Shown here: positions 60,553 to 64,000 of the stretch, piece by piece
Layout: each line of letters begins with the position of its first letter
Position numbering within the stretch: position 1 is the stretch's first letter
NCBI GenBank assembly: GCA_017640665.1
Contig: JAEPQE010000002.1
Location: forward strand, 248,001-312,000
Direction of reading: 5' to 3'
DNA: 64,000 nucleotides
Origin: Balneolaceae bacterium
Lineage (GTDB): Bacteria; Bacteroidota; Rhodothermia; Balneolales; Balneolaceae
Notes under the pieces: generated by a model
The model's input: only the letters and a program-made list of their open reading frames with translations
Told to the model about the DNA's origin: nothing
Databases searched by the model: none
Translations under genes and position numbers: made by a program

Positions 60553-61560
60553 ATGCTTGACGATATATCTGACTTAAAGAAAGAAATCGCCACCTATACG
60601 GTTACCAATCAGGAACAACTTGAAGCATTCCGACTGGAATTCCTTTCCAGAAACGGACGGGTACAATCGATGTTTAAAAACCTCGGATCGGTTCCTAAAG
60701 AAGACAGAGCTGCTGTAGGTAAGGGCATGAACGAGGTTAAACAGCTCGCCAACAAAAGGTTTGAAGAAGCTAAAACCGAGCTGGAAAAATCTACTTTGGT
60801 TGCGAAGAGCGTACTCGATGATCTTACACTTACTGCCCCACAAACGCCTATAGGATCTCTTCATCCTCTCACCAAAACAATGGATGAGATGAAGCAGATT
60901 TTTTACCGTCTGGGATTCACAATTTCAGATGGCCCTGAAGTAGAAGACGATTTCCATAATTTTACAGCGCTCAACTTCCCTCCTAATCATCCTGCAAGAG
61001 ACGAACAGGATACTTTTTTTGTTAGAAAGAGTGATGATGCTGAAATGATGGATTTAGTACTTCGCACCCATACTTCTCCGGTTCAGATTCGTTTAATGGA
61101 AAATACTAAACCTCCGATCCGTTCTATTATGCCCGGACGAGTGTACCGAAATGAAGCAGTATCCCCAAAATCATACTTTCTGTTCCATCAGGTAGAAGCA
61201 TTATATGTTGATGAAAACGTGAGTGTAGCCGATTTAAAAGAAACGCTGATCACATTCGTAAAATTGATGTACGGCAGCGATGTAAAATATCGCCTCCGTC
61301 CCGGTTTCTTTCCTTTTACAGAACCTAGTTTAGAAATGGATATTTGGTGGGGATCTGAAAAAGACGGCAAATGGCTCGAAATTCTTGGTTCCGGGATGGT
61401 AGACCCTAATGTGTTTGATGCTTCAGGAATAGACTCTAAAAAATACACCGGCTTTGCCTGGGGAATGGGTGTGGAACGTATCGCCATTTTGAAGTACGGA
61501 ATTGATGATATCCGCACTTTCTACGAAAACGACATCCGCTTTTTAGAACAATTTAATTAA
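60553..61560 (+). CDS. pheS: Phenylalanine--tRNA ligase alpha subunit
   Basis: PheS is the catalytic class II subunit of the (alpha beta)2 enzyme. The 335 residues have the N-terminal coiled coil, GSLHPLTKTMDEMKQIF, PEVEDDFHNFTALNFPPNHPARDEQDTFF, motif 2 (IMPGRVYRNEAVSPKSYFLFHQVEALYVDENV) and motif 3 in the GFAWGMGVERIAILKYGI block. It is followed 17 bases later by pheT. Confidence 0.97.
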   Translation: MLDDISDLKKEIATYTVTNQEQLEAFRLEFLSRNGRVQSMFKNLGSVPKEDRAAVGKGMNEVKQLANKRFEEAKTELEKSTLVAKSVLDDLTLTAPQTPIGSLHPLTKTMDEMKQIFYRLGFTISDGPEVEDDFHNFTALNFPPNHPARDEQDTFFVRKSDDAEMMDLVLRTHTSPVQIRLMENTKPPIRSIMPGRVYRNEAVSPKSYFLFHQVEALYVDENVSVADLKETLITFVKLMYGSDVKYRLRPGFFPFTEPSLEMDIWWGSEKDGKWLEILGSGMVDPNVFDASGIDSKKYTGFAWGMGVERIAILKYGIDDIRTFYENDIRFLEQFN

Positions 61561-61577
61561 GATTTTTTCGCCCGAAT

Positions 61578-64000
61578 ATGAAAGTATCGTACAACTGGCT
61601 TAAAGAATTTATAGACCTTCCACTCTCTCCCGCAGATGCTGCTGAGAAGATGACATTGATCGGGCTGGAAGAGGAAGAAACTTTCGAATATGGAAGTAAT
61701 CTGGATGGAGTAATTGTTGGAGAAGTTGTAGAAGTAACTCAACATCCCAATGCAGATCGGCTTCAGCTGTGCCAGGTTAATCTGGGTAAAGAAACCGTAC
61801 AAATCGTTTGCGGAGCTAAAAATGTTTCAGCCGGACAAAAAGTTCCTGTCGCTACTGTTGGAACCACTCTCCCGATAAAATTGGATGACGGAAGTTTGCT
61901 CACTTTAAGAAAAGCAAAGCTTCGTGGTGAAGTATCTAACGGAATGATTTGTGCTGAAGATGAGCTAGGAATTGGCACAGATCATGATGGAATTATGGTA
62001 TTGGATAGCACTCTTGAAGTGGGAACTCCAATTAATCAGGTTTTTGATTTAAATACTGATACCATCATCGATATTGCTATTACTCCAAACCGACCTGATG
62101 CTACATGTCATCTTGGTGTAGCCCGGGATTTAGCAGCAGCTCTGAATCTGGAATTGAAGAAACCATATCAGACACTCCGGATTCAGTCGATGAACCCGAC
62201 TGAGTCATCTCCTCCGGCAGAGGGGGCTATTAGTTCCCCTTCAGGCGTGAAGGGGTGGCAGCGCAAAGGCGCTGACGGGGTAGTCGCTAAAATAGATGAC
62301 AAGCCCATTTACAAAAATTATGTGAAAAACCTTCCTTACAACTCTGATCTAAAAGAAAGAGCACGAGATCTAAGAAAAGCTGGGAATCTTCCTGAAGTAC
62401 TGTTCTGGAATGAAGTAAAATCGAAGAAATTCCATGGAATAGACTTCGACAGGCAAAGAGTAATTGGCAATTACATTGTTGATTTCTATGTGAAATCTCT
62501 AGGGATGGTAATTGAAATAGACGGTTCAAGTCACGATGATAAACAAGAATATGATGCTGAGCGTCAAGCTTATCTGGAAGAGTTGGGTTTGGTTGTACAC
62601 CGAATAACTACAGAAGATGTAAAAAACAATTTGTCTGATGCTCTTAAGTGGCTTGAAGCGAGAATCGTGGAAGAGTATGGGACACCCCTGAATCCAATGC
62701 TAGACGCATCGGATTCATCCCCTCTGAAAGAGGGGAACTATTCAGAGGTTAATACTGATGATATCATTATTGAAATACAAAACCCCGAAAAATGCCATCG
62801 GTATGTAGGCAAAATGATCAGGAATGTGGAGATCAAAGAATCTCCTGATTGGCTTAAAAACCGATTATTAGCATTAGGTATGCGTCCGGTAAATAACGTT
62901 GTAGATGTTACTAATTATGTGATGCATGAACTGGGTCAGCCCCTGCATGCCTTCGATTATGATGAAATCAAAGGAAAGAAAATCATTGTAAAGGATTTCG
63001 AAAAAGAAATTGAGTTTGAGACTCTGGATCATGTTAAAAGAAAATGTGCACCAGGTACGCTCTTTATTTGTGATGGAAGCGGACCAACCGCAATTGCCGG
63101 TGTGATGGGCGGACTTCACTCTGAAGTAAGTGACTCCACAACAAATATTCTACTCGAAAGTGCTTATTTCGATCCGGGAACAATCCGGAAAACCGCCAAA
63201 GCACAAACTTTACAAACCGATGCCTCTTATCGTTTTGAAAGAGGGATTGATCCTAATATACAAGCTATTGCAGCAGAACGGGCAGCTGCTTTAATTGCAG
63301 AAGTTTCTGGTGGCAAACTTTCTGATGAGATCATTGATGTTCATCCTGTAAAGACAGAACCTATTGAGCTAACACTTACAAAGGCGTATCTAAACAGACT
63401 TTTAGGTACCGATCTCTCCATTAATGAAGTCCTAGCTATTTTGGATGGTCTGGAGTTTGAAGTGCTTTCATCAGACGAAGAAAAAGCTACCTTTAAAATT
63501 CCAACTTTCCGACCGGATTTAACCCGCGAAGTTGATTTGATTGAAGAAGTAGGTCGTTTGTACGATTACAACAAAATTGAAGCACCGAATCACGGTATCT
63601 TTGTTTCCACAGAAAAATTCTCGGACTGGGAAATTCTTATTTCAAAGATAAAAAAAGCATCTGTTGAGCTTGGGTTCAGAGAAATCTACTCTAATTCGTT
63701 AATATCAGAAAAAGAAGCAGGGCAATTTGGTTCTCTTGATGATATGATTGGTACACTCAATCCACTCACAAAGGACATGACCACCCTTCGCCCCTCCCTT
63801 CTTCACGGGTTTTTGAAGGCCTCGGCTTATAATTTCAATCGTCAGGCTTCAGGAGTTCGGTTCTTCGAAATAGGTAATGTGTTTAATCAAAGTGATGATT
63901 TCACTTATCATGATGGCATTAAAGAGCAAACCCATGTTCTCTTTGGGCTATCTGGATTAAAGTCAACCGAGCACTGGACTACCAAGCCGGTATCATATTC
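61578..64000 (+). CDS. pheT: Phenylalanine--tRNA ligase beta subunit with inserted DUF559 endonuclease domain (3' end outside window)
   Basis: The frame from ATG 61578 is open to the window edge (about 807 residues). Residues 1-196 are the normal N terminus: KVSYNWLKEF, tRNA-binding fold with VCGAKNVSAGQKVPVA, and ITPNRPDATCHLGVARDLAAA. Residues about 197-391 are foreign. They hold a full DUF559 domain (about 250-368) with NYIVDFY (D302), VIEIDG (E313, D315) and SSH (H319). From about 392 PheT resumes with IIIEIQNPEKCHRYVGKMIRNV, NNVVDVTNYVMHELGQPLHAFDYDEI and the B5 domain. All segments are in one frame without stops. The insert lies in a variable linker, so the synthetase may still work. 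Confidence 0.93.
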   Translation, partial: MKVSYNWLKEFIDLPLSPADAAEKMTLIGLEEEETFEYGSNLDGVIVGEVVEVTQHPNADRLQLCQVNLGKETVQIVCGAKNVSAGQKVPVATVGTTLPIKLDDGSLLTLRKAKLRGEVSNGMICAEDELGIGTDHDGIMVLDSTLEVGTPINQVFDLNTDTIIDIAITPNRPDATCHLGVARDLAAALNLELKKPYQTLRIQSMNPTESSPPAEGAISSPSGVKGWQRKGADGVVAKIDDKPIYKNYVKNLPYNSDLKERARDLRKAGNLPEVLFWNEVKSKKFHGIDFDRQRVIGNYIVDFYVKSLGMVIEIDGSSHDDKQEYDAERQAYLEELGLVVHRITTEDVKNNLSDALKWLEARIVEEYGTPLNPMLDASDSSPLKEGNYSEVNTDDIIIEIQNPEKCHRYVGKMIRNVEIKESPDWLKNRLLALGMRPVNNVVDVTNYVMHELGQPLHAFDYDEIKGKKIIVKDFEKEIEFETLDHVKRKCAPGTLFICDGSGPTAIAGVMGGLHSEVSDSTTNILLESAYFDPGTIRKTAKAQTLQTDASYRFERGIDPNIQAIAAERAAALIAEVSGGKLSDEIIDVHPVKTEPIELTLTKAYLNRLLGTDLSINEVLAILDGLEFEVLSSDEEKATFKIPTFRPDLTREVDLIEEVGRLYDYNKIEAPNHGIFVSTEKFSDWEILISKIKKASVELGFREIYSNSLISEKEAGQFGSLDDMIGTLNPLTKDMTTLRPSLLHGFLKASAYNFNRQASGVRFFEIGNVFNQSDDFTYHDGIKEQTHVLFGLSGLKSTEHWTTKPVSY
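62207..62285. repeat. Left composite hairpin end of the DUF559 insert
   Basis: Hairpins: CCCCTTCA/TGAAGGGG (62236-62255, loop of four) and CAGCGC/GCGCTG (62259-62274). AGTTCCCC comes before them and CGGGGTAGTC after. A weaker hairpin (62207-62226) lies just upstream. The same layout recurs inverted at the right end. Confidence 0.8.
62681..62748. repeat. Right composite hairpin end of the DUF559 insert
   Basis: GACACCCCT is followed by the hairpin GAATCCAATGC/GCATCGGATTC (62690-62716, one mismatch) and CCCCTCT/AGAGGGG (62719-62735), then AACTATTCAGAGG. Read on the minus strand it gives AGTTCCCCT, hairpin, hairpin, GGGGTGTC, like the left end. Confidence 0.8.

Follow-up and report, generated by a model that had tools for sequence, protein, structure and literature searches.

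We describe an insertion in pheT, the gene of the beta subunit of phenylalanyl-tRNA synthetase, which in our judgement is probably a mobile element consisting of a DUF559 nuclease flanked by palindromes, able to persist within a coding sequence if its insertion keeps the frame and falls in a loop that tolerates it. This reading draws on what was observed directly of the element's structure and reading frame, of its presence and absence among relatives, of nuclease-less copies with the same ends, and of the recurrence of such insertions in coding genes. Mobility of the element is well supported, and DUF559 would be its driver. DUF559 is a common protein family with little assigned function. The window referred to below is the whole stretch of 64,000 nucleotides that was analysed, and its features around the insertion are the following.

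61578..63998, + strand: pheT (phenylalanyl-tRNA synthetase beta), interrupted, in frame; runs past the window end to 994 codons
62170..62231, + strand: additional palindromic unit, oriented like the right end, outside the left end (sequence, inverted repeats, single-strand fold)
62232..62284, + strand: left terminal inverted repeat, two hairpins (inverted repeats, fold, second copy in genome)
62346..62648, + strand: DUF559 endonuclease domain, PF04480 (Pfam, model, fold matches)
62680..62738, + strand: right terminal inverted repeat, two hairpins (inverted repeats, fold; pattern found three times in genome)

The pheT gene and its insert

A single open frame starting at position 61578 spans the whole insert and ends in a normal PheT C-terminus, as read from the sequence and its translation. 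Counted from stop to stop the frame has 994 codons with no stop inside; from the ATG the protein is 987 amino acids long, compared to 802 in the nearest congener, with about 185 extra codons lying between the two normal parts of PheT. The gene is single-copy in the genome, and the interrupted copy is the only one. The original prediction of a complete DUF559 domain set in frame into PheT is borne out, in that the frame from 61578 is continuous and contains the two junctions with PheT and each of the four landmark peptides of DUF559, and Pfam finds, in this order, tRNA_bind (residues 45-150), DUF559 (257-357, E 1e-25) and B3_4 (405-578). The limits proposed for the insert (62163-62750) were off by no more than about 10 nt, the symmetrical element extending over 62232-62738 and the outer unit beginning at about 62170. 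In comparison with solved structures, the first half of PheT breaks off at residue 190 of the E. coli protein and the second picks up at residue 201, and residues 190-201 form a hypervariable inter-domain linker, in agreement with the variable linker first suggested as the site.

The DUF559 segment is absent from PheT of all 58 relatives searched, two congeners included, so it is not a conserved PheT domain, a point for which a comparison with orthologues had been proposed at the outset. In these relatives a short linker with about 14 variable residues joins the two halves. PheT of the nearest congener is 90–92% identical on either side of the insert, and C-terminal identities for the two congeners are 72% and 90%. 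The species is sampled by one genome, and among the relatives searched the insert is seen in that species alone. By this comparison the segment is not ancestral in pheT. Because dN/dS between the window's PheT and that of a congener is about 0.04–0.05, with no acceleration, and because dN to the outgroup for the two PheT parts (0.093 and 0.191) is no higher than for the uninterrupted sister (0.100 and 0.197), the protein is, to judge from its substitution rates, still evolving like a working enzyme.

Anatomy of the element

The left end (62232-62284) has the layout AGTTCCCCTTC-loop-GAAGGGGTGGC-stem-loop-GACGGGGTAGT, and the right end (62680-62738) is its inverted counterpart, GGGACACCCC-stem-loop-TCATCCCCTCTGAAAGAGGGGAAC. 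These terminal inverted repeats are about 55 nt each and form hairpins; relative to shuffled sequences, the single-strand fold of 62168-62290 has a z-score of -3.9 and that of the right-end region a z-score of -6.3. The symmetrical part between 62232 and 62738 measures 507 nt (about 0.5 kb), a multiple of three. The original prediction was right about the modular nature of the insert. It overlooked that the ends are palindromic and that related elements are inserted in frame in other genes.

In many loci the element ends read AATT..AATT/AATG, where AATT may be part of the target or of the repeat; a near-identical empty site was not found. A target-site duplication was not readable at any locus looked at. 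At L191, a clean intergenic element, the flanks match in two congeners and the spacer is rearranged or diverged there, so that no target-site duplication was obtained. In intergenic copies elsewhere (L191 being an example) DUF559 begins just after the left palindrome and mostly ends just before the right one. The pheT copy keeps this intergenic type of spacing but has neither an ATG at the DUF559 start nor a stop, and consequently the full DUF559 domain would be made only within PheT, unless weaker in-frame start candidates (ATG at 62190, GTG at 62247 and 62322) are used.

The domain itself scores 90.1 bits against the DUF559 (PF04480) profile, for which the curated cut-off is 20.6, and five putative active-site residues of the insert (D107, E118, D120, H124 and K127) show no variation across 23 sequences. 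In an AlphaFold model of the insert the DUF559 core is predicted with confidence, and the arms encoded by the palindromes are disordered. The model is matched best in fold by 3hrl, a DUF559 crystal structure, and by 3r3p, the homing endonuclease I-Bth0305I, the catalytic domain of the latter with probability 1.00 and a TM-score of 0.76 to the target, and E. coli Vsr (1vsr) stands further down the list. The insert domain is accordingly a predicted PD-(D/E)XK/Vsr-like endonuclease, and the modeled match to I-Bth0305I lends support to the homing-like character that had been attributed to it.

Nuclease-less copies in the same genome

L055, about 1496-1605: nuclease-less copy in the carA/carB spacer
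L227, about 1500-1620: nuclease-less copy in the fadA/fadB spacer

A genome search for further copies, recommended in the original prediction, yielded two that have no nuclease. Searching with the left end led to a second place, in the carA/carB spacer, where a copy some 120 bp long has no nuclease, and another such copy lies in the fadA/fadB spacer (the names fadA and fadB are our reading of the translations of two fatty-acid-oxidation genes). The 3.8 Mb genome contains the right-end pattern at exactly three places, pheT, carA/carB and fadA/fadB, and the pattern is found neither in a reversed control nor in the two congeners; the carA/carB spacer of the nearest congener is about 20 nt long and element-free. 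Since there are three copies here, none in the congeners, and an empty carA/carB spacer, the element family is likely to have been mobile after the species separated, as far as these sequence comparisons can tell. Of the copies found in the genome, that in pheT alone combines these ends with a coding sequence for the nuclease. The carA/carB and fadA/fadB copies could in principle have been moved by an enzyme other than DUF559.

In-frame modules in other genes

L114:1073-4192, - strand, genome G042: leucyl-tRNA synthetase (LeuRS) with in-frame DUF559 module and palindromic borders
L040, L089, L099, L103, L104, L183: modules in HsdR of different genera, at the same place before Walker A
L094, L096, L100, L101, L102, L105, L106, L185; L111-L113, L115; L088, L090; L109: in-frame modules in type ISP/IIG enzymes, HsdS, type III methylase
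L043, L116, L117, L118; L119, L120; L186: HemF, HemD and QueG fusions

In named genomes the nearest relatives of the insert are mostly in-frame modules within restriction-modification proteins, with HsdR, HsdS, type IIG/ISP enzymes and a type III methylase as hosts; searches of the phylum and the order added HsdR, an N6-methylase-like protein, ISP and type IIG hosts. The position in HsdR is just before the Walker A motif. In genome G042 the module occupies a loop at the base of the LeuRS editing domain; there is no second LeuRS match in that genome, and LeuRS of other genomes of the order carries no DUF559 module. In-frame insertion reaches at least two essential tRNA synthetases, PheT and LeuRS. 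DUF559 is also fused at gene ends, to the N-terminus of HemF, the C-terminus of HemD and the N-terminus of QueG, in each case with a palindromic linker. Hosts read the repeats in different frames (giving NSPPLEGW or FPSSGGV), and DUF559 is always in frame.

Single palindromic units with no nuclease are also read in frame within genes (L203 814-860; L103; L183; L184; L185), some of them in a gene that also holds a full module.

Evidence of movement comes from comparison of modules with their hosts. For L100 and L101, dS is 0.22 for the module and 0.98 for the adjoining host gene. The module of L089 is near (82–86%) and its HsdR host distant (65–67%), and the reverse applies to L099, with a distant module (65–69%) and near HsdR hosts (81–89%). 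At the HsdR site, then, likeness of modules does not run parallel to likeness of hosts, which suggests repeated arrival at one site in a homing-like manner; recombination within hsd operons could have contributed to the pattern. The original description of a transposon-like module agrees with the terminal inverted repeats, the two nuclease-less copies, the empty site in the congener and the low module dS (seen in this other pair of hosts). Because dS is saturated in most pairs of modules, dN/dS was taken from close pairs alone, and in these unsaturated pairs embedded modules have values of about 0.05–0.12, which fits a working nuclease.

Palindromes at DUF559 loci and at transposase loci

The palindrome core stands within 450 nt on both sides of DUF559 at 36 of the 51 loci whose flanks are complete, compared to one of the same 51 when the search is moved 1 kb further out and to none of 261 control windows. 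Some of the DUF559 loci were picked by likeness to the insert, and most of them come from searching the order with Pfam alone. Left and right ends taken from the same locus are more alike than ends taken from different loci (0 of 5000 permutations). Palindromes regularly border DUF559 genes in the sampled genomes.

A different explanation would have an unrelated transposase of the RAYT/Y1 type move the palindromes in trans, with DUF559 as cargo or as a separate repair or defence gene that became trapped between two copies of them. We consider this unlikely. A Y1 transposase is present in the window's genome, and a Y1 (RAYT-like) transposase gene located between hsd genes (L040 979-1578) adjoins the hsdR insertion of genome G043. 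Against these stand the absence of the DUF559 palindrome core from all 19 Y1 loci of the order, five of which were read closely and have their own repeats, and the existence of at least 10 genomes of the order with DUF559 and no Y1 match at the threshold used, along with the regular presence of the palindromes at DUF559 loci. For the 19 loci read, RAYT is ruled out as the bearer of these palindromes.

Plasmids and phages were searched as well and contained distant DUF559 proteins, nothing closer. Two identical DUF559 copies 3.25 kb apart in genome G071 (L148 1232-1531 and 4483-4782) were considered as a fresh transposition and rejected, as repeats show a duplication spaced by 3.25 kb; they are probably a segmental duplication.

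Discussion

The palindrome-flanked mobile element, our preferred explanation, would have entered the flexible PheT linker between the tRNA-binding and B3/B4 domains. Its retention would be due to a length and frame that keep the whole reading frame open, and to a linker that tolerates a separately folding domain; for the same two reasons the product is probably a single PheT-DUF559 chain, in which the palindrome-coded stretches would serve as disordered connectors. DUF559 may recognise the ends or the target and so cause movement, and the PheT-DUF559 fusion may be expressed and active. In-frame copies would survive by selection after random or homing-type insertion, and those that do survive would gain a host gene that cannot be lost.

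One could also regard the insert as a stable domain fusion in which PheT acquired an added nuclease function, for example in defence or repair, and not as a mobile element. The HemF, HemD and QueG fusions look fixed in several species and modules elsewhere are under purifying selection, as such a fusion would have it, but the PheT insert is limited to one species among the relatives searched, and both its complete terminal repeats and the nuclease-less relatives elsewhere in its genome speak against such a fusion; we rate it as quite improbable. An assembly or sequencing artefact joining two loci, conceivable for a species represented by one genome, has very little probability considering that the insertion falls exactly in the variable linker with the frame kept and both ends complete, that the contig is 1.05 Mb long, and that LeuRS provides an analogous case. 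Removal of the segment by splicing, as an intein or intron, would suit the position within an essential gene and the homing-type nuclease fold, and is ruled out for practical purposes by the absence of an intein domain in Pfam and NCBIfam scans of PheT (as the original prediction had also maintained) and, up to E 1, of any Rfam hit to an intron within 61500-63500, as well as by a frame that stays open all the way through, a feature not required of an intron.

Homing endonucleases are carried by introns or inteins, which are removed by splicing. The pheT element resembles those of the Vsr fold (EDxHD), such as I-Bth0305I, in its catalytic fold, and the modules resemble them in the repeated occupation of a conserved site in HsdR and in ISP genes; unlike them, the pheT insert does without splicing and has palindromes as its ends. 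It also has traits of MITEs and insertion sequences, namely terminal inverted repeats and several copies that are polymorphic between close relatives.

Rickettsia palindromic elements (RPEs) are palindromic repeats found in frame within unrelated protein genes and translated in the product (reviewed in PMC10969869). The pheT element is likewise palindromic and in frame in a protein gene, a likeness in mode of life from which we claim no membership, and it could be pictured as an RPE that carries a nuclease of the homing type. RPEs are about 150 bp long and encode a short peptide, whereas the pheT element has a whole endonuclease domain and terminal inverted repeats. In-frame palindromic elements are in this sense a kind already known, and there is a fair chance that the pheT element represents a class of its own. 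In the REP/RAYT system (REPtrons), the gene of a DNA-processing enzyme is bordered by palindromes and enzyme-less copies occur elsewhere in the genome (PMC3733652), and the pheT element shares this combination of an enzyme gene, palindromic borders and enzyme-less genomic copies. It differs in that the DUF559 enzyme is of the PD-(D/E)XK type and not an HUH tyrosine transposase, that the ends do not have the GTAG-tagged hairpin layout, and that the elements lie in frame inside coding genes. Within the DUF559 family the insert domain is related to NGO0050 and to Caulobacter VsrA, the latter proposed to act in mismatch repair (PMC12907096); these are stand-alone proteins and, unlike the pheT insert, have not been assigned to any mobile element with palindromes. 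In the open-access literature, to which our search was limited, we found no description joining DUF559 with palindromes or in-frame insertion, and it is in this sense that we call the pheT type of element undescribed.

More tentatively, it is possible that DUF559 nucleases provide the mobility of a class of elements with palindromic ends, widespread and undescribed, which home in frame into protein-coding genes, essential tRNA synthetases and restriction-modification enzymes among them, and persist there translated and unspliced; the pheT copy, the sole coding one in this genome, might then have moved the nuclease-less copies in trans.

Palindromic ends of its own, nuclease-less copies and in-frame insertions give DUF559 a testable job, comparable to that of RAYTs for REPs. 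A whole nuclease domain can settle unspliced in an essential enzyme, as it did in two tRNA synthetases, and it did so repeatedly in restriction enzymes. Such elements clearly illustrate how mobile DNA can give rise to new parts of proteins, and they provide natural examples of insertion sites that enzymes tolerate.
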